A stretch of 64,000 nt of DNA. Origin: Chryseobacterium herbae. Its GTDB lineage: Bacteria; Bacteroidota; Bacteroidia; Flavobacteriales; Weeksellaceae. Shown here piece after piece: positions 10,292-22,005 of this stretch (the stretch's first letter is position 1; every line of letters begins with the position of its first letter). Both the position numbers and the translations under genes were made by a program. The notes under the pieces were generated by a model. That model saw nothing but the letters and a program-made list of their open reading frames with translations, was not told the origin of the DNA and ran no database searches. Location: positions 186,001 through 250,000 of the forward strand of contig NZ_JAOAMU010000002.1 of assembly GCF_025154075.1 (NCBI RefSeq), given 5' to 3'.

Positions 10292-11560
10292 ATGAAAGAC
10301 GAGATACAGGATACTAAAAGTTTTTTACAGGAAATAAGTGATCAGCTTTACATCTATATCAGCCAGGTAACACCCGGCGGAATGGATTGGATTGTTCATA
10401 TTATTGTCAAACTGGCACTGCTTTGTGCCGTGTTTTTAGTGGTAGATTTTGTGTTTAAATTTGCTATCAATTTTATCTTCAGATTTTTCCGGAATGATGA
10501 GAAATATCCAATCATCCGATCTATCTACCAGTCTAAGATCTCTAATTCCGTAGCTCATTTTGCCGCACTTTTGGTGGTAGGAGGAATACATCCTTCCATA
10601 TTTCCTGCAACGGCACTCCCTAAAACCAATATTTTCATCAACAGATCCATCAATTTAGGCCTCGTGCTTATTCTTGCCGGAATGTTATACAGATCATTAA
10701 CAGGTTTCAGGTATTATTTCACCATAAAACAGGACTTCTACAAGATCATGGCACTGAATGCGATTTCGGAAACCGTAAAGATCCTTGGGATTTTCATCTT
10801 TTCTGTGGTGGGACTTTGTGTGATATTTGGAATTAAAGGAACGACGATTGTAGGAAGTTTAGGAGCCATTACCGCAGTATTGGTGCTTGTTTTCAGAGAT
10901 ACGATTTTAGGTTTTGTAACCGGAATACACGTTGCAACCTCTAAAAATTTAAAAGTAGGAGACTGGGTAAGCATTCCGAAATACAGCATTGAAGGAAATA
11001 TTACCGATATCAGCCTTCTGACAACGAAGATCACCAATTTCGATAAAACCGTTTCCACAATTCCCACCTACGATTTGCTGACAACAGAGATTAAAAACCT
11101 TCAGGTGATGTCTGAATCCAATACCAGAAGAATCAAGAAATCGGTCTATTTTAATATCAATTCTTTTAAATTTTTAAATGAAGAAGATATTGAACGGTTA
11201 AAAGATATCAACCTGATCTCAGATTATCTGGAAGAGAAAACACTGGAAATTGAAAAAGAAAAACAAAATCTGGAACATAACGATAAAACAATCAACGGAA
11301 GACAGTTGACCAATATCGGGGTTTTCAGATATTATGCTCAAAAATATATAGAAAACGATCCTGATATTGATCAGGAGGGAGTCAGAATGGTTCGTCAGCT
11401 CGATATTACGCCGCAGGGACTTCCTCTTGAAGTGTACTGTTTTGCAAATGATTCCAAATGGGATCACTTTGAACAGATTCAGGCTGATATTTTTGACCAC
11501 TTGCTTGTAGCTTCCAAAGAATTTGATCTTCAGGTGATGCAGGTGAGTATTAAAGTGTAG
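10292..11560 (+). CDS. Mechanosensitive ion channel, MscS family (YbdG-like)
   Basis: 422 residues. Roughly four to five membrane helices occupy residues 25-205. The pore-lining helix and start of the beta domain read TTIVGSLGAITAVLVLVFRDTILGFVTGI (about 185-215), then NLKVGDWVSIP and GNITDISLLTTKI, the standard MscS core. A long soluble C-terminal region with an inserted charged segment (ISDYLEEKTLEIEKEK) matches the YbdG/MSL-like size class rather than small MscS. It should open under membrane tension during hypo-osmotic shock. It is a single-gene unit, divergent from DUF456. Confidence 0.9.
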   Translation: MKDEIQDTKSFLQEISDQLYIYISQVTPGGMDWIVHIIVKLALLCAVFLVVDFVFKFAINFIFRFFRNDEKYPIIRSIYQSKISNSVAHFAALLVVGGIHPSIFPATALPKTNIFINRSINLGLVLILAGMLYRSLTGFRYYFTIKQDFYKIMALNAISETVKILGIFIFSVVGLCVIFGIKGTTIVGSLGAITAVLVLVFRDTILGFVTGIHVATSKNLKVGDWVSIPKYSIEGNITDISLLTTKITNFDKTVSTIPTYDLLTTEIKNLQVMSESNTRRIKKSVYFNINSFKFLNEEDIERLKDINLISDYLEEKTLEIEKEKQNLEHNDKTINGRQLTNIGVFRYYAQKYIENDPDIDQEGVRMVRQLDITPQGLPLEVYCFANDSKWDHFEQIQADIFDHLLVASKEFDLQVMQVSIKV

Positions 11561-11764
11561 AATAGAGAAGTTAGAAGCTAGAGACTAGAAGTTAGTAGGA
11601 TTCGATTGCTTATTCTGATCTGGCTTTAGAGATATAGAAGTATACCCAAAACTAATTTCTAACCTCTACTATCTAATTTCTCGAAAAGTAATAATAATGT
11701 GATATAGAAGTACGCTCAAAAGCTAACATCTAACTTCTACTATCTAACATCTATAAATAAAGAA
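11561..11764. repeat. Word-like inverted repeat (TTAGAAG / CTTCTAA words)
   Basis: The left part uses GAAGTTAGAAGCTAGAGACTAGAAG-type words; the right part is made of their complements CTAATTTCTAACCTC and CTAACATCTAACTTC, repeated twice. The whole segment can fold into a long imperfect hairpin between the channel gene and pdxJ. Confidence 0.6.
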
Positions 11765-12484
11765 ATGACAAAGCTAAGCGTAAACATTAATAAAATTGCG
11801 ACATTAAGAAATGCCAGAGGAGGCGAAACGCCAAGTGTAACAGAGGCAGCCGTGAAGATCCAGGAATTTGGAGGACAGGGAATCACTATCCATCCGAGAC
11901 CAGATGAGAGGCACATTACAAGAAAAGATGTCTACGATCTGAAGCCATTGGTAACCACTGAATTCAACATTGAAGGAAATCCGCACCGCTCTTTTATTGA
12001 TATGGTTCTGGAAGTAAAGCCGGAGCAGGTAACGTTGGTCCCTGACGCAGACGATGCTATTACCTCCAATGCAGGATGGGATACCAAGAAACACTTGGAC
12101 TTTCTGACAGAAATTATCGCAGAGTTTAAAAACGCAGGAATCCGCACTTCTATTTTTCTTGATCCTCTGCCAGAGCTGGTAGAGCACGCTGCAAAAACGG
12201 GCGCCGAAAGAATAGAACTGTATACCGAAGCCTACGCGAAAAATTACCTTACCAATAAAGAACAGGCTATAAAACCTTATTACGATACCGCCGTTGCTGC
12301 TACAGAATTCGGATTGGGAATTAATGCAGGTCATGACTTAAGCCTTGAAAATTTAAAATACTTTGCCGATAATATTCCAAATCTACTTGAAGTATCCATC
12401 GGTCATGCTTTGGTTTCTGAAGCACTGTATATGGGACTTGAAAATACGGTTCAGGCGTATTTGAAACGTTTGGCAAAATGGTAA
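11765..12484 (+). CDS. pdxJ: Pyridoxine 5'-phosphate synthase
   Basis: 239 residues, the usual PdxJ length. It starts KLSVNINKIATLRNARGG, the phosphate- and substrate-binding N-terminus. HPRPDERHI (43-51) supplies the conserved active-site His/Arg residues, and the C-terminal part has GINAGHDLSLENL and EVSIGHALVSEAL. The enzyme condenses 1-deoxyxylulose 5-phosphate with 3-amino-2-oxopropyl phosphate to make pyridoxine 5'-phosphate, the last ring-forming step of the DXP-dependent vitamin B6 route in the cytosol. An alpha/beta hydrolase follows after a 121-base word-repeat spacer. Confidence 0.97.
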   Translation: MTKLSVNINKIATLRNARGGETPSVTEAAVKIQEFGGQGITIHPRPDERHITRKDVYDLKPLVTTEFNIEGNPHRSFIDMVLEVKPEQVTLVPDADDAITSNAGWDTKKHLDFLTEIIAEFKNAGIRTSIFLDPLPELVEHAAKTGAERIELYTEAYAKNYLTNKEQAIKPYYDTAVAATEFGLGINAGHDLSLENLKYFADNIPNLLEVSIGHALVSEALYMGLENTVQAYLKRLAKW

Positions 12485-12605
12485 AGGAGAAATTAGAAGT
12501 TAGAATTTAGAATTTAGTATGAAAGACGCACTTTAAATATTCAACCTCTAATTTCTAGCTTCTAACCTCTAACTTCTAGTTTCTAACCTCTATAATTAAA
12601 AAAAA
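12485..12605. repeat. Word-like inverted repeat (TTAGAAG / CTTCTAA words)
   Basis: GAAATTAGAAGTTAGAATTTAG on the left is followed on the right by CTCTAATTTCTAGCTTCTAACC and CTAACTTCTAGTTTCTAACC. It uses the same words as 11561-11764, so this type flanks pdxJ on both sides. Confidence 0.6.
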
Positions 12606-13385
12606 ATGGACATCTTAAACTCAAAAATATTTGGCGAAAATCTTACGGTTACGCCGCTTCTTGTATTTCACGGGCTGTTTGGAATGCTGGACAACTGGGG
12701 AAGTTTTGGAAAAGACTTGGGCGAATATCTTCCCGTACACTTAATCGACCTTAGAAATCATGGGCGAAGCTTTCATTCCGAAAGTATGTCGCATGATGAT
12801 CTGGCAGATGATATTGCTGGATATATGGATCATTACGGAATTCAGAAAGCTCATGTTTTAGGACATTCTTTAGGTGGAAAGGCCGTGATGCAATTTGCTT
12901 TGAAATACCAGGAAAGGGTAGATAAGCTGATCGTAGTAGATATTTCACCAAAAGCTTATCCTCCGCATCATCAGGGAATCATCAAAGCTCTTGAAACGGT
13001 AGATTTAAATACTGTAGGTTCAAGAGGTGAGGTGGAAACGGTTTTGAGTCAGTACATTCCTGAAAAATCTACGATACAGTTTTTAGCAAAAAACCTATAT
13101 TGGGATGACAACAAAAAGCTGAACTGGAGGTTTAATCTTAAAACTTTATCTGAAAAATATAACGAGTTTGTTTCGAATGCCGTAAAATTTGGTGTTTTCG
13201 AAGGTGATTCTTTATTTATTGCAGGCGCAAAATCAAATTATATCCTTCCACAGGATGAATACGGGATTAAGCAGCAGTTTCCAAAAGCAAAAATTGTCAC
13301 TGTAAAAAATGCAGGACATTGGGTTCAGGCTGAAAATCCGGTTGATTTCGCGAATGTTGTAAAGGAATTTCTTGATTTACATTAA
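12606..13385 (+). CDS. Alpha/beta hydrolase (YbfF-like esterase)
   Basis: 259 residues. LLVFHGLFGMLDNWGSFGKDL near the N-terminus provides the oxyanion region, and GHSLGGKAVMQFA (about 86-98) holds the nucleophile Ser. The catalytic His lies in NAGHWVQAENP near residue 239; the acid is probably the Asp in DEYG or nearby. This matches the YbfF group of short acyl esterases. The substrate is unknown. It follows pdxJ on the same strand and precedes the graspetide genes by 115 bases. I see no reason to include it in the peptide pathway, though a hydrolase beside a cluster lacking a protease deserves a note. Confidence 0.85.
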   Translation: MDILNSKIFGENLTVTPLLVFHGLFGMLDNWGSFGKDLGEYLPVHLIDLRNHGRSFHSESMSHDDLADDIAGYMDHYGIQKAHVLGHSLGGKAVMQFALKYQERVDKLIVVDISPKAYPPHHQGIIKALETVDLNTVGSRGEVETVLSQYIPEKSTIQFLAKNLYWDDNKKLNWRFNLKTLSEKYNEFVSNAVKFGVFEGDSLFIAGAKSNYILPQDEYGIKQQFPKAKIVTVKNAGHWVQAENPVDFANVVKEFLDLH

Positions 13386-13500
13386 TTAAATTCCGCCTAT
13401 TCAATTATTTAGTTAAAATTTTCTTAAAATAAGATAATATTTCCCCACGTATTGAAATTTTTGTACTTTAGTTTTACAAAAAAGCTAAATATATTAACTT

Positions 13501-13746
13501 ATGGAAAAGAAAAACTCAAAAAAACCTTTCTTTGCTTCATTTTTAGAGAAACAAATTAATGATCCTGAGAAAATTCAGGGCGGTGGAATTACGGCACCTA
13601 CTGTAGATACTATTACTGTACCGACAAGAGATGTTGTCATTACATCACAACTTGTGGACAACGCGACATTGCCTTTAAGAGATCAGGTGGTAACAATGAA
13701 GTACCCGTCTGACAGTGATGAGGGTGGTGAATTAGAAATGTTGTAA
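13501..13746 (+). CDS. Multicore graspetide precursor A1 (chryseoviridin-like)
   Basis: 81 residues. The leader contains KKPFFASFLEKQ (residues 7-18), the helical motif bound by microviridin ATP-grasp ligases, then DPEKIQ and a GGG (27-29) that probably marks the leader/core border. The core has four Thr-x4-Asp modules, TAPTVD (31-36), TVPTRD (39-44), TSQLVD (48-53) and TLPLRD (56-61), and ends with TMKYPSDSDE (65-74), which matches the microviridin core TxKYPSD. By analogy to microviridin, T65 should link to D71, S70 to D73 and K67 to E74. Each earlier module should form one small macrolactone. The product is likely a protease inhibitor. Confidence 0.93.
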   Translation: MEKKNSKKPFFASFLEKQINDPEKIQGGGITAPTVDTITVPTRDVVITSQLVDNATLPLRDQVVTMKYPSDSDEGGELEML

Positions 13747-13789
13747 TCAGCATTACAACGAAATATTTTTTTAACCCAACTCAATAATC

Positions 13790-14026
13790 ATGAAAGACGA
13801 AAATTCAAAAAAGAAGCCTTTTTTTGCTTCATTCCTGGAAAAACAGATCAAAGATCCGGAAACCATTCAAGGGGGTGGAATTATTACAAGCACTGACAAC
13901 GACATCGTTACTGTTCCTTCAAAAGATAATGTTACAGCACAGATTTTTGATCATGTGACAAGTCCGAACAAGGATCTGTTGGTTACTATGAAGTATCCTT
14001 CAGACGGTGACGAAGATCTTGTTTAA
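13790..14026 (+). CDS. Multicore graspetide precursor A2 (chryseoviridin-like)
   Basis: 78 residues with the same leader (KKPFFASFLEKQIKDPETIQ) and GGG at 28-30. The core modules are TSTDND (33-38), TVPSKD (41-46), TAQIFD (49-54) and TSPNKD (57-62), then the microviridin-like end TMKYPSDGDED (66-76). The modules sit on a strict 8-residue period (33, 41, 49, 57). The first module is unusual because D36 also lies inside it, so its ring size is uncertain. The 43-base gap to A1 resembles the gap to A3 (both have ATATTTT..TAACC), pointing to tandem gene duplication. Confidence 0.93.
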   Translation: MKDENSKKKPFFASFLEKQIKDPETIQGGGIITSTDNDIVTVPSKDNVTAQIFDHVTSPNKDLLVTMKYPSDGDEDLV

Positions 14027-14077
14027 ATTTCTGTACACAAGAAATTACAAACATATTTTAACCAAAACTAAATTATT

Positions 14078-14305
14078 ATGAAAGACAAAAATTCAAAAAA
14101 GAAGCCGTTTTTTGCGTCATTCTTAGAAAAACAACTGAAAGATCCTGAAACAGTAAAAGGAGGTGGTATCATCACAATTCCTGAAAGAGATGTGATCACG
14201 AAGCCAGTGGTAGATAACGTAACTTCTCCTCAGGACGACCTGATGGTGACAATGAAATATCCATCTGACGGAGATGACGATGCTCCAACAGTTCCATTAG
14301 ATTAG
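14078..14305 (+). CDS. Multicore graspetide precursor A3 (chryseoviridin-like, variant tail)
   Basis: 75 residues. The leader matches its siblings (KKPFFASFLEKQLKDPETVK, GGG at 28-30). There are only three Thr-x4-Asp modules, TIPERD (33-38), TKPVVD (41-46) and TSPQDD (49-54), before the terminal core TMKYPSDGDDD (58-68). The amide acceptor expected from microviridin alignment is Asp67 here instead of Glu. Uniquely, the peptide continues as APTVPLD to a C-terminal Asp75, a possible extra Thr71-to-Asp75 ring. A strong hairpin terminator follows about 40 bases after the stop. Confidence 0.92.
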   Translation: MKDKNSKKKPFFASFLEKQLKDPETVKGGGIITIPERDVITKPVVDNVTSPQDDLMVTMKYPSDGDDDAPTVPLD

Positions 14306-14341
14306 GACGTACAATATTAATCGTATTAATACAATCATATC

Positions 14342-14372
14342 AAAGGAAACTTACCATTAAGTTTCCTTTTTT
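14342..14372 (+). terminator. Terminator/attenuator between precursor and ligase genes
   Basis: The arms aaaggaaactta (14342-14353) and taagtttccttt (14358-14369) pair perfectly around a 4-base loop, followed by T residues. It sits inside the cluster, 37 bases after precursor A3 and just before the first ligase ATG. Partial read-through would give many precursor transcripts per ligase transcript. Confidence 0.88.
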
Positions 14373-14387
14373 AATAAAAAGCGGCAC

Positions 14388-15344
14388 ATGATTCTCTGCA
14401 TCACCCACTCAAAGGATTTTTACAATATCGATATCTTTTTTGAATATCTTACTTCCAAAAATATTCCATGGTTCAGACTGAATTCTGACCGTATGAACCA
14501 TTTCCAGAAGATCAGTGTGAATGAAAATTCATTTGAACTCACCGATGAGTCCGGAAATACGATACATTCCAAAGATATTCAGGCAGTATGGCACAGAAAA
14601 GCCTGGGGAATAAACACGCCCGAAGAACTGGATGAAGAGTACAGAAAAATATTCCTGAGCGGATACGCGAGCCTTCGCTATAACCTGATCACCGTCCTGG
14701 AAAACATTCCATGGATCAATCCTTTTGAGAATGAAAGAAAGATAGACGGAAATAAAATGCTTCAGTTAAAACTGGCCAAAGAAAGCAGCCTCACGATTCC
14801 TGAAACTATTTTTTCTAACGATGAAGAAAAGATTACTGCCTTTTTTCATGAATTCTGCGGCGGAAAAGCAGTGGCTAAACTTCACAGCCTGACAGCAAAG
14901 ACCATGAACGGAGAAAATCTGATCTCAACCATGATCATTGAAGAAGATACTCTGGAGAATATTTCAGACATCACGTATTGTCCGATGATCTTCCAGCCCT
15001 ACATTGACAAAGCTTACGAATTGAGAATTGTTTATCTGGCCGGAGATTTCTTTACGGGAAAGATCAACAACAGCGAGAATGTCGACTGGAGACTGGCTAA
15101 TGGAGATTATACCTGGTCAGCCTATGAACTTCCGGAACATATAAAGTCAGGTCTTACGTCTATGATGGAAGAAATGGGACTTTATATCGGAGCCATTGAC
15201 ATGATCCGAGGAAAAGACGGGGAATATTATTTCCTGGAAGTGAATCCACAGGGAGAATGGGGAATGCTTCAGAAAGAGCTGGATTTTCCCATTGCAGAAA
15301 AAATTGCCGATAACCTTATAAAAAGAATCAATACCCATGAATAA
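14388..15344 (+). CDS. ATP-grasp ligase, MdnB/MvdC type (predicted omega-amide forming)
   Basis: 318 residues, the usual size of microviridin ligases. The N-terminal domain has CITHSKDFYNIDIFFEYL and AVWHRKAWGINTPEELDEE. The ATP-grasp part has AVAKLHSLTAKTM, TYCPMIFQPYIDKAYELRIVY, and the metal-binding end GAIDMIRGKDGEYYFLEVNPQGEWGML. VNPQGEWGML resembles MdnB/MvdC, which forms the Lys-to-Glu amide, rather than MdnC with its GEFFWL. It should therefore cross-link the lysine in TMKYPSD. It follows the internal terminator and overlaps the next gene by 8 bases. Assignment to amide formation is from alignment by eye with remembered MdnB sequence. Confidence 0.9.
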   Translation: MILCITHSKDFYNIDIFFEYLTSKNIPWFRLNSDRMNHFQKISVNENSFELTDESGNTIHSKDIQAVWHRKAWGINTPEELDEEYRKIFLSGYASLRYNLITVLENIPWINPFENERKIDGNKMLQLKLAKESSLTIPETIFSNDEEKITAFFHEFCGGKAVAKLHSLTAKTMNGENLISTMIIEEDTLENISDITYCPMIFQPYIDKAYELRIVYLAGDFFTGKINNSENVDWRLANGDYTWSAYELPEHIKSGLTSMMEEMGLYIGAIDMIRGKDGEYYFLEVNPQGEWGMLQKELDFPIAEKIADNLIKRINTHE

Positions 15345-16341
15345 AATACTAATCATTACGCATACTGCTGATAATTTTTCAATTGAAAAAGTAACAGAAT
15401 ACATAGAGAAAAACGGTTGCGAGGTCATCCGTTTCGATGTAGACCTGTATCCTATAGAAAACAAACTGTCCACCATTTTTCAGGATGGAGAATGGGTAAG
15501 TATCCTTGAGACTAAAGATAAAAAGTACCGTCTGGATGATATTGCTGCTGTTTGGTACAGAAGAGCTTACAATATCGGAAACGGACTGCAGGAAGAATTG
15601 GAAAAAAAATTCTACGGGGCTGCCATGGGCGAGATCCGCAACACACTTTTCGGGTTTATAGAGTCTGTAGATGCTTATGCGTTGGGAAAACCGGGTGTTT
15701 ACAGAAGACTGGATAGTAAAGAAGAACAGCTGAAAATTGCAGTTAAATTAGGACTTAAAATTCCTGAAACCTGCCTGACAAATAATCCTGAAGAAGCCAG
15801 ACAGTTCATCCTTAAGCATCAGAACGTAGTGGCAAAAATGCAGACGGGTTTTGCAATTTATGAAGACGGTGTGGAAAGTGTTGTTTTCACAAATGTGGTG
15901 AATGAAGATAAGCTTGAAGAACTGGATTCATTAGTGTATTGCCCGATGCAGTTCCAGAAAAAGATAGAAAAGAAAAGAGAACTTCGTGTTACCATTGTAG
16001 GACAGGATGTTTATGCATTTGAAATAGATTCCCAGCAGTCTGAAGATGCTAAAGTGGACTGGAGAAAAGATGGTGTCAACCTATTAACGAAATGGGAGAG
16101 AACAGAACTGCCTGCAGATGTTGAATCAAAACTCCTTGAACTTTTAGATGTTTACAATGTGGATTACGGTGCGATAGACATCATTGTTTCCCCTGAAGAC
16201 GAATATTATTTCATTGAGATCAATGCAGCAGGTGAATTTTTCTGGCTGGATAATTTAACGGAAGAAAATATGATTTCCAAAAGCATCGCAGACGTACTTT
16301 GCGACAAAGCTCCAAGAAGAAACAATATGGTTATGGCTTAA
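15337..16341 (+). CDS. ATP-grasp ligase, MdnC/MvdD/CdnC type (predicted omega-ester forming)
   Basis: 334 residues. It starts KILIITHTADNFSIEKV, has AVWYRRAYNIG, KMQTGFAIYEDGVESVVFTNVV, VYCPMQFQKKIEKKRELRVTIVG, and the catalytic end GAIDIIVSPEDEYYFIEINAAGEFFWL. The GFAIY, ELRVTIVG and GEFFWL strings match MdnC/MvdD, the lactone-forming ligase of microviridin. They also match what is known of CdnC of chryseoviridin, which makes successive Thr/Ser-to-Asp esters on multicore precursors. It should activate Asp carboxylates with ATP and close the rings in all three precursors after binding the PFFASFLEKQ helix. The start ATG lies inside the preceding gene (8-base overlap), implying coupled translation. 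Confidence 0.92.
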   Translation: MNKILIITHTADNFSIEKVTEYIEKNGCEVIRFDVDLYPIENKLSTIFQDGEWVSILETKDKKYRLDDIAAVWYRRAYNIGNGLQEELEKKFYGAAMGEIRNTLFGFIESVDAYALGKPGVYRRLDSKEEQLKIAVKLGLKIPETCLTNNPEEARQFILKHQNVVAKMQTGFAIYEDGVESVVFTNVVNEDKLEELDSLVYCPMQFQKKIEKKRELRVTIVGQDVYAFEIDSQQSEDAKVDWRKDGVNLLTKWERTELPADVESKLLELLDVYNVDYGAIDIIVSPEDEYYFIEINAAGEFFWLDNLTEENMISKSIADVLCDKAPRRNNMVMA

Positions 16342-16366
16342 AAAAGGTCATCACTAATTCATACCC

Positions 16367-16400
16367 AAAAGCCCTTTTGTCAATCTGAAGGGCTTTTTTT
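16367..16400 (+). terminator. Terminator ending the graspetide operon
   Basis: The stem aaaagccctt / aagggctttt is followed by a T-run, 26 bases after the stop of the second ligase gene. It closes the cluster and separates it from the epimerase operon. Confidence 0.92.
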
Positions 16401-16640
16401 GTCTTTTAGAATGAAAGTTTTTCATCAAAGTTTTCATAATTGACCATTCACATGCAAAGCAAAATTCACCATTGACTTTACACAAATCAAACAGATTTTT
16501 TATCACGACAAATAAAATCTTTGATTTTTTATTTAAAGCTTAAGTGTACTTTCTATGCGTAATGCATGAACTTAAAAAAATAACTTAAGTGTTTAAAAAA
16601 CTTTTGTCTCTTTTGTAGTTTAAAAAAATATTCTATCAGC

Positions 16641-16688
16641 TTAACCAAAATTACATGTGAAGACCAAAATAATGATAATATTGGTTAA
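16641..16688. repeat. Inverted repeat upstream of the epimerase operon
   Basis: ttaaccaaaatta (16641-16653) and taatattggttaa (16676-16688) are reverse complements with one mismatch. It lies about 80 bases upstream of the promoter and could be an operator or a hairpin. The rest of the 478-base gap is AT-rich without a gene; it includes acttaagtgt/cttttgt words also seen near 57.4 kb. Confidence 0.45.
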
Positions 16689-16766
16689 ATTAAGCGGAAT
16701 TCTGCTTTAAAAATCGCAAATTTGCATAAGGCGTTTTTCATAAAATCCTGACAGGAAAATGAAGAA

Positions 16767-16795
16767 TTGCCGGATAGAAAATATTGTTATATTTT
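16767..16795 (+). promoter_or_regulatory. Promoter of the epimerase operon (TTG-N18-TATATTTT)
   Basis: TTG at 16767-16769 and TATATTTT at 16788-16795 are 18 bases apart, one base off the TAnnTTTG consensus. The ATG follows 24 bases later. Confidence 0.55.
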
Positions 16796-16819
16796 AGTCA
16801 GCAATCAAGTAAATAATTA

Positions 16820-17833
16820 ATGATTTTTGTAACGGGTGCAACCGGAATCCTGGGAAGGGTGATCGTTTTGGAACTTCTTAAAAAAGGGAAAAACGTGCGT
16901 GCTTCCAAAAGACCGGGCAGCAATTTAAACGATGTAAGGCATTCTTACGGTTTCTATACAGAGAATCCTGATGATCTTTTCAGTAAGATTGAATGGGTAG
17001 ACGTAGATTTCGATGATATTGATGCTCTGCAGAATGCATTAAAAGGGGTAGATGAGGTCTATCACTGTGCCGCCAAAGTAAGTTTCCATCCTCATGATGA
17101 AAAAGAAATGTACCATACCAATGTGAAGGGTACAGAAAATCTGCTGTTTGCCTGTGAAGGTTCGGATGTGAAAAAATTTCTTCACGTCAGTACCATTGCG
17201 GTTCTGGATATTTTTAACGAAAACGGAGAATTAGACGAAAGTTCTGAATTTAATCCTAAAGAAGAACATTCTGCTTACGCCATTTCAAAGCACCTTGCTG
17301 AGATGGAGGTGTGGAGAGCTTCTGCGGAAGGTTTGAATACCATCATCGTCAATCCGGGAATGATCATCGGAAGCGGAAACTGGGGCCAAAGTAGCGGAGA
17401 TATTTTCCCAACGTTTGAAAAGAATGGCTTTACATTTTCCGGCGGAACCAGTTATATTGATGTAAGAGATGCAGCTCAGATTTCCATTGATCTGATGGAA
17501 AAGAATGCTTTCGGAGAACGTTTTATTCTGATATCCGAAAACAAAAGATATGCAGATCTTGGGAAACAGATCCGTTCACAACTTGGATTGAAGGAAGCAA
17601 AAATCCTTTCAAAATTCCAGTTAAATCTCGGAAGACTGGCTAATATCCTTTTCGGCTGGCTGATTCCGAAGCTGAGAATCATTACAAAATCCAATATTGA
17701 ATCCATATCATCCCTTAACACCATTTCCAATCAGAAGATTAAAAAAGAGATCGATTATCAGTTGATTCCTGTAAAGGAAAGTGTTGATTTTCATCTTAAA
17801 AATTATATTAACGACAAAAAGCTGAATTCATGA
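16820..17833 (+). CDS. NAD(P)-dependent epimerase/dehydratase, 3-beta-HSD-like
   Basis: 337 residues, extended short-chain dehydrogenase fold. It opens with VTGATGILGRVIVLELL, the Rossmann TGxxGxxG motif, has DEVYHCAAKVSFHP and the active-site YAISKHLAEME (Tyr-x3-Lys). The C-terminal substrate domain is less conserved. The family acts on sugar nucleotides, dihydroflavonols or sterol-like compounds, so the substrate is open. The stop overlaps the ATG of the acyl-CoA ligase gene (ATGA), so the two are co-translated. Pairing with an acyl-CoA ligase hints at lipid modification. Confidence 0.87.
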   Translation: MIFVTGATGILGRVIVLELLKKGKNVRASKRPGSNLNDVRHSYGFYTENPDDLFSKIEWVDVDFDDIDALQNALKGVDEVYHCAAKVSFHPHDEKEMYHTNVKGTENLLFACEGSDVKKFLHVSTIAVLDIFNENGELDESSEFNPKEEHSAYAISKHLAEMEVWRASAEGLNTIIVNPGMIIGSGNWGQSSGDIFPTFEKNGFTFSGGTSYIDVRDAAQISIDLMEKNAFGERFILISENKRYADLGKQIRSQLGLKEAKILSKFQLNLGRLANILFGWLIPKLRIITKSNIESISSLNTISNQKIKKEIDYQLIPVKESVDFHLKNYINDKKLNS

Positions 17834-19599
17834 ATGTTGCAGCAGCAATTATCCTAAAAAATGTAGAAAAACATCCGGTGAAATCCGCGATAGGCTTTAA
17901 AAAGAAAGATGAGGCGTGGAAAGAACTGAGCTGGAAAAAATTCGGTGAAATTGTTTTTAAGACTGCTAATGCACTGAAAAATGCAGGAATTCAGGAAAAT
18001 GATAAAGTAGCGATCTACTCAGACAATTCTTCGGAGTGGATGATCTTTGATCTGGCCTCAATGGCGATTGGCGCCATCAATGTACCTGTGTATTCAACCA
18101 ATAATGCAGAACAGGCGGAATATATCATCAATGACTCTTCAGCAAAAGCTGTATTGGTGGGCAGTCAGGAGCAGTATGATGCATGTCTGGAAATTTTGAA
18201 GAAAGAAGAGAATCCATTGGAAACCATCATTGTTTCTAAAAAATCAATCTGGATCAAAAAAGAATTCAACAGTTTTTATCTTGAAGATTTCATCGCCAAA
18301 TCGTCTTCTAAACTGGAGATCTGTCATAAAGAAAATGACGACACAGCCACGCTGATCTATACATCCGGAACCACTGGAACTCCAAAAGGGGTGATGCTTA
18401 CTCACGGAAATTTCATCAAGGCTTTCGATTCTCACTTCGAGTTTTTTAAATTTAAAAACTTTGAGGAAGAGCTTTCCCTGGCATTTTTGCCGTTGAGCCA
18501 CGTTTTCGAAAGAAGCTGGAGCCTGCTTTGTCTTTATGGTGGAGCAAGGGTATATTTCCTGGAAGATCCGAAGAATATTGCAAAAACGCTGGAAGAGGTG
18601 AAACCCACGATGATGTGTGCGGTACCGAGATTTTTCCAGAAAGTATATGCCGGAGTTTTAGAAAAAGCCGAAGAGGGTTCATCGCTGAAGAAGAAAATCT
18701 TCGATTGGGCGCTGGCAACAGGATGGCAGACTGCAGAACTGAGAAGAAATGAACAGGTGATTCCTTTTGGATTAAAATGCAAAGAATCAATCGCTGATAT
18801 GCTCGTTTTCAGCAAAATTAAAGAGAAGATGGGCGGAAGATTGTGGTTCTTGCCTTGTGGTGGAGCATCACTGTCGCCGGAAGTGACAAAGTTCTTTGAT
18901 TCCGTAGGCATTCACGTAACAGTTGGTTATGGACTGACAGAAACTACAGCCACACTGACACTTTTCCCATTGACCCATTTTGAACATGGAACCAGCGGAA
19001 AACCTTTACCGGGTGTAGAAATCCGTATCGGTGAAAATGACGAGATCCAGGCTAAAGGAAACGGAATCATGAAAGGCTATTACAACAAGCCGGAAGAAAC
19101 CCAGAAAGTTTTCACGGAAGACGGATGGTTCAAAACCGGAGATGCCGGAAAATTTGACGATAAAGGAAATCTGATCATCACAGACCGGATCAAGGATCTG
19201 ATGAAAACCTCCAACGGAAAATACGTCGCTCCACAGCAGATTGAAAATCTTCTGACCAATAATAATTTCATCCAGCAGATCATGCTGGTCGCAGAAGGAA
19301 GACAGTTTGTTTCCGCACTTATTGTTCCGAATTTTGAGTTTTTACAGGATTATATTAAAAAGAACAACATTCCTTTTACCAATTGGGAGACTGCTGTAAA
19401 AGACGACAGCATTGTTGCTTTGTATAAAGAGAAAATTAAAGAACTACAGGTTCATCTGGCAGATTATGAAAAAGTGAAGAAATTCACGCTGATGCCTGCT
19501 GAATTTGATATCAATACCGGTGAAATCACCCCTACATTGAAGGTTAAGAGAAATGTAGTGCTTAAAAAATATGCGGATATTATAGAGAAAATGTATTAG
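17830..19599 (+). CDS. Long-chain acyl-CoA ligase (AMP-forming)
   Basis: 589 residues, typical of long-chain fatty acid CoA ligases. The AMP-binding motif TLIYTSGTTGTPKGVMLTH lies at about 173-191, with GYGLTETTATLT (A5) near 363, WFKTGDAGKFDDKGNLIITDRIKDLMKTSNGKYVAP (A7-A8) near 435-470 and the PTLKVKRN A10 lysine close to the C-terminus. It activates a fatty acid with ATP and couples it to CoA in the cytosol, probably membrane-associated. It overlaps the epimerase gene by 4 bases and is followed 78 bases later by the mevalonate decarboxylase gene. Confidence 0.94.
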   Translation: MNVAAAIILKNVEKHPVKSAIGFKKKDEAWKELSWKKFGEIVFKTANALKNAGIQENDKVAIYSDNSSEWMIFDLASMAIGAINVPVYSTNNAEQAEYIINDSSAKAVLVGSQEQYDACLEILKKEENPLETIIVSKKSIWIKKEFNSFYLEDFIAKSSSKLEICHKENDDTATLIYTSGTTGTPKGVMLTHGNFIKAFDSHFEFFKFKNFEEELSLAFLPLSHVFERSWSLLCLYGGARVYFLEDPKNIAKTLEEVKPTMMCAVPRFFQKVYAGVLEKAEEGSSLKKKIFDWALATGWQTAELRRNEQVIPFGLKCKESIADMLVFSKIKEKMGGRLWFLPCGGASLSPEVTKFFDSVGIHVTVGYGLTETTATLTLFPLTHFEHGTSGKPLPGVEIRIGENDEIQAKGNGIMKGYYNKPEETQKVFTEDGWFKTGDAGKFDDKGNLIITDRIKDLMKTSNGKYVAPQQIENLLTNNNFIQQIMLVAEGRQFVSALIVPNFEFLQDYIKKNNIPFTNWETAVKDDSIVALYKEKIKELQVHLADYEKVKKFTLMPAEFDINTGEITPTLKVKRNVVLKKYADIIEKMY

Positions 19600-19677
19600 A
19601 AATAAAGCTTGATCAACCCAAGGAGTAAAGTTCCTTTTGTGGTTCAATAAAAGAGTTTTATTATTTTAAATCAGACT

Positions 19678-20736
19678 ATGACAACACAAGAATTTCTAGG
19701 AAAACAAAATTTCACCATCCATACTCAGATAGTTTCAGACAGCTGTCCGTCCAATATTGCCCTGATCAAATACTGGGGTAAATATGAAAACCAGATCCCT
19801 GCCAACCCGAGCATCAGTTATACGCTGAATCATTGTAAAACCAATACTTCTATGGAATTTTTGGCGGATGAACCTTTCTCGGTACAGACTTTTTTAGCAG
19901 GAAATGAAGAGGTGAAATTTGCCGAAAAAATTGAAAAATACTTCAAAAATATCGAAGAGTATCTTCCATGGATTCTGAAAGGAAAATACATCATCAGAAC
20001 AGAAAATACATTTCCGCACAGTTCCGGGATCGCGAGTTCTGCTTCAGGATTCGGAGCTATTGCAAAATGCCTGATGAAGCTGGATGGAATTTTTTCCAAT
20101 GAACTTTCTGAAGAGGAATCATTAAGAAAAGCTTCGTTTCTGGCAAGATTAGGAAGCGGAAGCGCCTGCAGAAGCTTATACAACGGCTTGGTGGTCTGGG
20201 GAACTTCCGATGAGGTGGAAGGAAGTTCAGACTTATTTGCTGTACAATATCCGGATGCTGAAATTCACGATATCTTTAAAAATTTCAATGACTGGGTTTT
20301 ACTGATTCATGAAGGGCAGAAAAGTGTCTCTTCTACGGTAGGACATGGTCTGATGAACACCAATCCTTATGCAGAAAGAAGATTTCAGGAAGCAAGAGAG
20401 AATTTTGTTCCGATGAAAGAGATCTTAAAAAACGGTGATATGGAACGTTTCATCAAATTGGTAGAACATGAGGCGCTTACACTCCACGCGATGATGATGA
20501 TGAGTGATCCTGCCTTTATCCTGATGAAAACCGGAACCATGGAAGTCATCAATAAGGTCTGGGATTTCCGTAGAGAGGCTGGTCTTCCCTTATTCTTCAC
20601 ACTTGATGCCGGAGCCAATGTACATTTGCTGTTCCCGAACAACGGATCAGAAGATCAGATCAAAACTTTTATCGAAACCGAATTACTTCAGCATACTCAA
20701 AAGAATGGAGTCGTAAAGGATGTGATGACGTTCTAA
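19678..20736 (+). CDS. mvaD: Diphosphomevalonate decarboxylase
   Basis: 352 residues in the GHMP kinase superfamily. The hallmark SCPSNIALIKYWGKY (20-34) and PANPSISYTLN (41-51) are followed by the phosphate loop PHSSGIASSASGFGA (about 118-132) and a DAGANVHLL segment near the C-terminus. It converts mevalonate 5-diphosphate to isopentenyl diphosphate with ATP, the last step of the mevalonate pathway used by Flavobacteriia. Other mevalonate genes are not in the window. It may be read through from the acyl-CoA ligase gene. The ATG at 19678 has an A/T-rich leader. Confidence 0.95.
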   Translation: MTTQEFLGKQNFTIHTQIVSDSCPSNIALIKYWGKYENQIPANPSISYTLNHCKTNTSMEFLADEPFSVQTFLAGNEEVKFAEKIEKYFKNIEEYLPWILKGKYIIRTENTFPHSSGIASSASGFGAIAKCLMKLDGIFSNELSEEESLRKASFLARLGSGSACRSLYNGLVVWGTSDEVEGSSDLFAVQYPDAEIHDIFKNFNDWVLLIHEGQKSVSSTVGHGLMNTNPYAERRFQEARENFVPMKEILKNGDMERFIKLVEHEALTLHAMMMMSDPAFILMKTGTMEVINKVWDFRREAGLPLFFTLDAGANVHLLFPNNGSEDQIKTFIETELLQHTQKNGVVKDVMTF

Positions 20737-21125
20737 AAAGAAAAAAACAGCAGTTCTTTACTGCAAATAAAATATAAACATCTGTGTAATTCGTGAAAAT
20801 TGTGAGAAAAAACCTCCCGCAGATTTCACGGATTGCGCAGATTCTTTTTTTGTAAAACTTTAGGCTAAGCTAAGCTGATTTGACGGTTCTCTAACACGCT
20901 CACTTACTCGAATCAATGCCAATTGATTTCTCTTTGCAATCTTAAAATTTTACATTCAAAAAATCAACCTTTGTGTGGTAAATAGCAATAAAGAAATACA
21001 CTTTAAATTTAGGATAAAATATTAATCTAAATAACAGGCAAAAAATAGGCTTTGTGCTGATACGTTGATATAGTTAAATGTTTAATAATCGCAAGGGTAG
21101 ACAAAGTTCTTTTGAAATGAAACAA
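20737..21125. other. Intergenic region without a gene
   Basis: About 390 AT-rich bases between mvaD and the inverted-repeat element. It contains a small gcagttctttactgc hairpin just after mvaD and a cgcagatttcacgga word shared with the 57.3-57.5 kb duplication. No credible reading frame. Confidence 0.5.
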
Positions 21126-21310
21126 TTTTAATAAAGATAAACAAAGGCATTTCATTTAAAAAAGTAAAACAAATAAATTGTGAAATCCTCAAAAATTTAG
21201 AGGTTCTTATTTTAATAAAAATCCTGTATTTCGGAAATAAGTGAAACGCCTTTGTCTACCTTATTTTAAAGAAATTAAAATCAATTCTTTGTTTTTCTTT
21301 GCGTGAAATA
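21126..21310. repeat. Inverted-repeat element, copy 1 (MITE-like)
   Basis: About 185 bases, mostly identical to 44913-45096. The left end ttttaataaagataaacaaaggc and right end aagtgaaacgcctttgtctaccttatttta are near-complementary. The inside holds a small cctc..gagg hairpin and the conserved string tgtatttcggaaataagtgaa. The outer tail attctttgtttttctttgcgtg is shared by both copies. Found in only two places in this window. Confidence 0.75.
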
Positions 21311-21342
21311 AAGCCTATATAGCACTTTTATTAGTGAATGTT

Positions 21343-22005
21343 TTAAATAAAAGGCGTATTCAGGAAATCATTGAAAGGCTTCATCAGTTTAAAAATCTTC
21401 GTTATATTTTTCGCTGCATTTTTATCCATAACTTCCTCATCTTTCAGGTTATAAACCACAATAAAGTTTTTCAGCTTTAAATAGTCTCCCATCGGATCTT
21501 CCTTTTCAAACCCCTGAGGAATTTTTTTCAGTTGATCATCCTGATCAAGCTCCGGGAAATGTTTCTTAAAGTCCTTCTGATTGATGATTTTCAGAAAATC
21601 GTCTCCATATAATGAGATTTCCTTTCTTACTTCTTTCAGAACGGAAGATTCAGGCATATAAATACCACCGGCAAGAAAAGATTTTCCAGGTTCCATATGA
21701 AGATAGTAGCCACCTTTCTGACTGCCTTTTCCCATCCCTAAAGAGGCTCCGAAATTGGTTTTATACGGGATCTTATCTTTTGAAAATCTAGTGTCCCTAT
21801 AAATTCTGAACAATGCTTTTTTACCGTCAAGCTTACCTAATTCTTCATCGAATTCAGCCATTTCTTTGATCAGTTCATCGAGAAAAGAGATGACGTTTCC
21901 CTGAGATTCTGTGTAAAGGTTTTTATTTTCTGTAAACCACTCACGGTTGTTATTGTTGGTCAGGTCTTTTAAGAATGTAAAAGTTTCGGGCTTTATGATA
22001 CTCAT
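21343..22005 (-). CDS. DUF2461 family protein
   Basis: 220 residues covering the whole DUF2461/TIGR02453 family. It begins TFLKDLTNNNNREWFTENKNLY, followed by FRIYRDTRFSKDKIPYKTNFGASLG and GGYYLHMEPGKSFLAGGIYMPE. These three blocks are the family signature. The biochemical function is unknown. It is a single minus-strand gene whose 3' end lies just beyond the inverted-repeat element. Confidence 0.92.
   Translation of the reverse strand: MSIIKPETFTFLKDLTNNNNREWFTENKNLYTESQGNVISFLDELIKEMAEFDEELGKLDGKKALFRIYRDTRFSKDKIPYKTNFGASLGMGKGSQKGGYYLHMEPGKSFLAGGIYMPESSVLKEVRKEISLYGDDFLKIINQKDFKKHFPELDQDDQLKKIPQGFEKEDPMGDYLKLKNFIVVYNLKDEEVMDKNAAKNITKIFKLMKPFNDFLNTPFI

Follow-up and report, generated by a model that had tools for sequence, protein, structure and literature searches.

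The systems closest to the one described here are the chryseoviridin (cdn) cluster of Chryseobacterium gregarium DSM 19109, the cyanobacterial microviridins and marinostatin. Chryseoviridin reportedly has four rings of five or six residues before a microviridin-like core. Cyanobacterial mdn clusters contain dedicated transporter and acetyltransferase genes. Marinostatin has the core TMRYPSDSDE and is not known to have preceding modules or a lactam. The DNA analysed in this work (the window) is a stretch of 64,000 nucleotides from Chryseobacterium herbae (G000:C5:186001-250000, genome size 5.13 Mb), and it holds a group of precursor and ligase genes which is very probably a chryseoviridin-type graspetide cluster. 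According to PMC8939145, this locus occurs in 47 species close to C. gregarium, where it shows the core motif seen here and lies between the two flanking genes found here, and the window cluster therefore belongs to an already published kind. It is an intact, ordinary member of that kind, with two cores which were not seen in 140 relatives.

Gene content and family assignment

As read from the open frames, three small precursor genes are followed head-to-tail by two ATP-grasp ligase genes, all on the forward strand, and these five are the only genes between the flanking hydrolase and epimerase of the window.

13501-13746, + strand: precursor 1, open frame of 81 amino acids; leader to GG, ending at 13584
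13591-13608, 13615-13632, 13642-13659 and 13666-13683, + strand: precursor 1 modules, four Thr-x4-Asp (TAPTVD, TVPTRD, TSQLVD, TLPLRD)
13693-13722, + strand: precursor 1 cage, TMKYPSDSDE
13790-14026, + strand: precursor 2, open frame of 78 amino acids; leader to GG, ending at 13876
13886-13903 (atypical), 13910-13927, 13934-13951 and 13958-13975, + strand: precursor 2 modules (TSTDND, TVPSKD, TAQIFD, TSPNKD)
13985-14014, + strand: precursor 2 cage, TMKYPSDGDE
14078-14305, + strand: precursor 3, open frame of 75 amino acids; leader to GG, ending at 14164
14174-14191, 14198-14215 and 14222-14239, + strand: precursor 3 modules, three (TIPERD, TKPVVD, TSPQDD)
14249-14278, + strand: precursor 3 cage, TMKYPSDGDD
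14388-15344, + strand: CdnB-like (MvdC-type) ATP-grasp ligase, probable lactam-former
15337-16341, + strand: CdnC-like (MvdD-type) ATP-grasp ligase, probable ester-former; 8-base overlap with the CdnB-like gene

The leader shared by the three precursors contains PFFASFLEKQ, which fits PFFAxFLExQ, and ends in GG. The C-terminal core motif TxKxPSDxD[DE] of PMC8939145 is present in all three, the final cage acid being Glu in precursors 1 and 2 and Asp in precursor 3. All of them pass the cut-offs of NCBIfam NF033738, microviridin precursor (70, 73.3 and 72.3 bits for precursors 1, 2 and 3; cut-off 26), and of Pfam PF12559, Inhibitor_I10 (38.4, 36.6 and 35.3 bits; cut-off 21). A preliminary description of this DNA had read three tandem genes with a shared leader and TMKYPSD plus acidic ends, which the frames at 13501-14305 confirm. 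It had also given 3-4 Thr-x4-Asp modules for each precursor, and four, four and three were found before a single cage, while the two ATP-grasp genes that it placed downstream are those listed above.

The CdnC-like ligase scored 487.6 bits against TIGR04184 (MvdD), above the cut-off of 475, and is 81% identical to the crystallised CdnC of C. gregarium, PDB 7MGV. The 7MGV sequence matches the product of locus L164 of strain DSM 19109 at 100% identity, so that the reference used here is the original chryseoviridin cluster. The preliminary description, which named a chryseoviridin-like multicore graspetide cluster and called the ligases MdnB-like and MdnC-like, was for this reason right in its naming. 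Named Chryseobacterium loci carry a CdnC 97-98% identical to that of the window. The best family of the CdnB-like ligase was TIGR04185 (MvdC) with 402.2 bits, just below the cut-off of 425, and this speaks against the assignment; the match to AMdnB, 7M4S, had an E value of 2.4e-55.

The comparison with the C. gregarium cluster, which had been proposed beforehand, showed that the two agree in leader, in the spacing of the modules, in the cage, in the ligases and their order and in the flanks, and that both have the same hairpin 5' of cdnB. The two differ in the number of precursors, four there and three here, and in the ring interiors; precursor 3 of C. gregarium moreover has a long acidic-proline tail, and its first module is readable as five or six residues. 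With the cyanobacterial microviridins the window cluster shares the leader motif, the TxKYPSD core, the two ATP-grasp ligases and the presence of several cores per precursor. The precursor AMdnA (PMC5934393) contains the complete microviridin core several times over; the window precursors instead have modules of six residues, one ring each, ahead of one cage. No transporter or acetyltransferase genes of the mdn type were found between the flanks of the window locus. In this it also differs from a 22-gene predicted region of another Chryseobacterium, for which parts of PMC8151938 give transport-related genes.

No second cluster was found in the window genome, where PF21068 matched CdnB and CdnC only and NF033738 the three precursors only. 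Three proteins with a C39-peptidase domain, with open frames of 733 to 741 amino acids, are encoded on the contigs C8, C12 and C13 of this genome (L306, L308 and L307, respectively). By their domain they are no more than candidates for GG cleavage and export in trans.

Among 173 genomes of the genus, 142 had a whole or nearly whole CdnC-like match, and 140 regions together with the window made up the set of 141 loci; G061, split over contigs, was left out. Precursors were detected by the leader pattern, thus a precursor without that leader would be missed. Locus L071 has a single precursor in a long gap, where another may have been missed or be broken. The set comprised 325 precursor frames, 323 of them with a cage, and 28 loci had one precursor, 59 two, 39 three, 13 four and 2 five. 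In the 323 cores the Thr-x4-Asp spacing was counted 1023 times, far beyond 200 shuffles (mean 197, maximum 237), and none of the nine other Thr..Asp spacings (1-4, 6-10) exceeded its own shuffle maximum. One precursor had one module, 31 had two, 162 three and 129 four, giving 1065 modules of 332 kinds in total. The first module of precursor 2, TSTDND, is atypical, and relative L038 has TNTDNG there, hence without Asp. Cores 1 and 2 had no identical copy among the other 140 loci, and for these two the earlier expectation of new products stands; it does not hold for core 3, which is identical in L034 and L037, the entire precursor 3 being identical in L034. The two unseen cores extend a natural library of ring-chain peptides, all built on one constant scaffold of rings with differing loops.

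The hairpin between precursors and ligases

Two hairpins with a T-run lie in the window cluster, one ahead of cdnB and one behind cdnC.

14342-14369, T-run to 14372, + strand: intercistronic hairpin AAAGGAAACTTA-CCAT-TAAGTTTCCTTT, conserved in 141/141 loci; probable attenuator
16367-16397, + strand: hairpin with T-run 3' of cdnC, probable operon end; from a custom script, unlisted in a generic terminator scan

The window gap between the last precursor and cdnB folded with a z of -3.40, none of 200 shuffles being equally stable, into 12 pairs with the T-run following at once. By a strict rule (stem of at least 7, at least 5 T within the next 7 bases) a hairpin was present in 134 of 141 such gaps. 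None was seen in the 184 gaps separating one precursor from the next, whose median length is smaller (41 vs 83 nt), and 1 of 141 gaps shuffled for base composition only had one. The 3' arm [TC]AAGTTTCC was found in all 141 loci; AAGTTTCC ends 18 to 25 nt 5' of cdnB, and the next 8 bases hold 4 to 7 T in every locus. The hairpin occurs in 101 distinct sequences, in which 98.3% of cells are paired and 7 of the 12 pairs invariant. Double changes were seen in 43 cells of these sequences (shuffle mean 17.6), and the outer pairs switch from A-U to G-C. Stems 3' of cdnC, the matched control, were present in 112 of 141 loci and were of 93 kinds.

The strict pattern GGAAACTTA-N2-8-TAAGTTTCC was found at one place in the window genome, for which one extra base at each end was used, and in 129 of 171 genus genomes searched. 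The 42 genomes without it were all 29 cluster-less ones and 13 cluster-bearing ones with variant arms. Among the matches listed, G061 had two and G092 had one outside its cluster. In the outgroup locus L313 (G375) a hairpin GUUGAGCAAUGC-CAUG-GUAUUGCUCAAC with a U-rich stretch lies between the precursor and the CdnB-like start (z -2.55; 4 of 200 shuffles equally stable). This is one case, with the same position and another sequence, in which the CdnB-like start was chosen to fit the relatives, and a longer start would place the hairpin inside the frame. An Rfam search of 13380-16850, with E up to 1, gave no match.

We hold with moderate confidence, judging from sequence and position, that the hairpin at 14342-14372 is an attenuator setting the ratio of precursor to ligase. 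Hairpin and T-run would act as a partial terminator, giving many precursors per ligase and keeping the ligase below the precursor. Several results count against this. Of the five covariation measures, two (the number of doubly changed pairs and the further pair types) did not rise above the shuffles, and the covariation score of one slid control was the same as that of the observed hairpin, so that the double changes come down to two outer pairs. The window hairpin is missing from the output of a generic terminator scan, whose four sites are all on the minus strand (shuffle mean 2.2). The near-frozen sequence of the hairpin within the genus is also not explained by a partial terminator.

It is possible, though clearly less probable, that the hairpin merely stabilises the precursor mRNA at its 3' end or marks a site where that mRNA is processed, or that it is a DNA operator. 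It is a 9-4-9 palindrome, which would suit an operator, and an inner stem so nearly frozen, unlike the stems 3' of cdnC, goes further than a terminator, which needs structure only; on the other hand, the T-run stands directly 3' in every locus, the outer pairs change in base while staying paired, and the sole outgroup cluster has a differently sequenced hairpin with a U-rich tail in the same place. Somewhat more doubtful is a control element of the operon that a protein, perhaps one made by the cluster, would recognise by its sequence, coupling the ligase to the precursor supply. Such recognition would explain the near-invariance of the inner stem in a genus where the terminator-like stems 3' of cdnC drift freely. 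As an attenuator, the hairpin would be a directly testable control point for the ratio of peptide to enzyme, and it may cut ligase expression when the cluster is moved to another host.

A terminator-like inverted repeat between the precursor gene and the biosynthetic genes, proposed to be regulatory, is described for lasso peptide clusters in PMC5974421. The repeat is likewise in the gap downstream of the precursor; the peptide class is another, and here the inner stem is nearly frozen genus-wide. Narrow phrase searches of the open-access literature, whose reach does not extend to the chryseoviridin paper or to supplements, found no earlier description of a cdn hairpin, and the main text of PMC8939145 has no mention of such a hairpin, terminator or attenuation, 'hairpin' being found in one reference title only.

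Directly 5' of precursor 1, at about 13470-13500, there is an AT-rich block TTTTTTGTACTTTAGTTTT...AAAACTAAATAT, well conserved in the window and 20 relatives. It can be folded into a small hairpin in the window clade and is a possible promoter or 5' leader element. A scan for sigma-70-type promoters (9 found, shuffle mean 12.0) was uninformative, and so was a Bacteroidetes-type pattern, which was found 5' of precursor 1 in 4 of 141 loci. A tRNA scan of 11000-22000 found none.

Proposed ring chemistry and constraint on the precursors

In the chemistry we propose, the PFFASFLEKQ leader would recruit both ligases. CdnC would close every Thr-x4-Asp module, giving one six-residue omega-ester ring each, and would form two esters in the C-terminal TMKYPSD core, while CdnB would link the core Lys to the last acid, resulting in a microviridin-like tricycle. 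The leader would then be cut at GG, and proteins encoded outside the cluster would export the product. Precursors 1, 2 and 3 are predicted to lose 7, 7 and 6 waters, respectively. For cores cut at the first GG, the calculated monoisotopic masses are 5699.880 (linear) and 5573.806 (7 waters lost) for precursor 1, 5316.623 and 5190.550 (7 waters lost) for precursor 2, and 4981.446 and 4873.383 (6 waters lost) for precursor 3. We infer the ring and cage bonds from homology, and the leader-guided ester closure, the lactam, the GG cleavage and the inhibition from the family; by analogy, the products probably inhibit serine proteases.

The ratio of nonsynonymous to synonymous polymorphism (pN/pS) was calculated in the 21-genome clade of the window, for precursor 2 in the 14 of 21 genomes having three precursors and the motif HVT, seven being left out. 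The values were low in the leaders (0.04 to 0.07), ring Thr and Asp (0 to 0.04) and cage (0.02 to 0.05), and higher in ring interiors (0.26 to 0.44), linkers (0.20 to 0.44) and short tails (0.23 to 0.57). For cdnB and cdnC they were 0.138 and 0.053. The precursor peptides thus combine a rigid scaffold with loops that are free to vary. Positive selection on the ring interiors was not shown, as their values are like those of the linkers and pS, 0.41 to 0.68, is near saturation. An additional ring in precursor 3, C-terminal to its cage (PTVPLD, Thr-x3-Asp), was considered and rejected, because the ring Thr and Asp of this precursor never change in the 21 aligned relatives, while in PTVPLD the Asp is absent in L044 and L046 and the Thr/Ser replaced in L042 and L053.

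The cage ends in Asp-Asp in the ligase-proximal precursor of 128 of 141 loci and in Asp-Glu in 145 of 182 other precursors, hence the third ring may differ in size among paralogues. Positions 3 and 10 of the 323 cages were Lys/Asp (159), Lys/Glu (158) or Arg/Ala (6), with no other combination. As no cage has lost Lys without also losing the supposed acceptor acid, or the reverse, the six cases support a Lys-acid lactam in the remaining cages, and they give support from natural variation for the residues of the third cage bond; it counts against this that the six precursors resemble each other and may be one event. Their cage, T[ML]R[YF]PSDSDA, is in the first precursor of L111, L114, L136, L140, L157 and L158. 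It is predicted from its residues to form a marinostatin-like bicycle inside clusters still making Lys cages. The marinostatin core is nearly the same as the C-terminal core of precursor 1, and the Arg/Ala precursors are closer still.

Both ligase genes were open over their full length in 138 of 141 loci. The exceptions were L071, where cdnB is short, L154, where it has one in-frame stop, and L173 (G016), where the cdnC reading frame shifts after about 60 residues and the precursor and cdnB look intact. These counts bear on whether the C-terminal core is a bicyclic diester only, as in marinostatin, with a free Lys and with CdnB in another role or none. We consider this unlikely. AMdnC alone forms up to two lactones per core, as given in parts of PMC5934393, which would allow such a product, but CdnB is kept in all 141 loci, full-length and open in all but the two named, and Lys and acceptor acid are kept jointly in 317 of 323 cages and lost jointly in the other 6.

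In L154 and L156 the first precursor is a decaying gene copy of 43 amino acids, with the leader and the start of the core and without a cage. That the window, too, has one or more decaying duplicates among its precursors, no longer yielding product, is very improbable, for despite these two truncated relatives and the irregular TSTDND of precursor 2, none of the three window frames is broken, and each of the three precursor sets shows strong constraint on leader, ring residues and cage (pN/pS 0 to 0.07).

Distribution and insertion site

In a family survey, precursors were found in 144 of 320 genomes, all within one of 33 genera, which corresponds to 144 of 173 Chryseobacterium genomes. The cluster type is thereby not rare, being common in the genus as well as published (PMC8939145). 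In a sample of the phylum, 8 of 395 genomes had precursors, seven of these being Chryseobacterium and the other one G375. Two genes border the cluster in the window.

12606-13385, + strand: alpha/beta hydrolase, flank; border of the insertion site, outside the system
16820-17833, + strand: NAD-dependent epimerase/dehydratase, flank; border of the insertion site, outside the system

The hydrolase was present in all 141 loci, and the epimerase within the fetched stretch in 132. In all 29 genus genomes without precursors the two lie side by side, with 120 to 588 bp between them. For this count 31 genomes were taken, two of which (G135 and G156) carry precursors on broken contigs; in G118 the epimerase match was in two pieces, and gaps were worked out from the match coordinates. 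The two genes as tailoring genes were consequently rejected, and their adjacency in cluster-less genomes points to a fixed chromosomal site with the flanks outside the system. On a hydrolase tree of 171 rows (143 present, 28 absent; G107 without a locus) 7 changes are required to account for presence and absence, and well-supported branches force at least 3 of these.

In G061, the contigs C1 (466145) and C20 (59697) hold the hairpin pattern twice; this genome has five precursor matches and a cdnC split over contigs, possibly a second cluster or an assembly duplicate. Outside the genus, G375 carries at L313 1411-1656 (- strand) one microviridin-type precursor with two cages, each after one Thr-x4-Asp module, and this precursor adjoins CdnB-like and CdnC-like genes.

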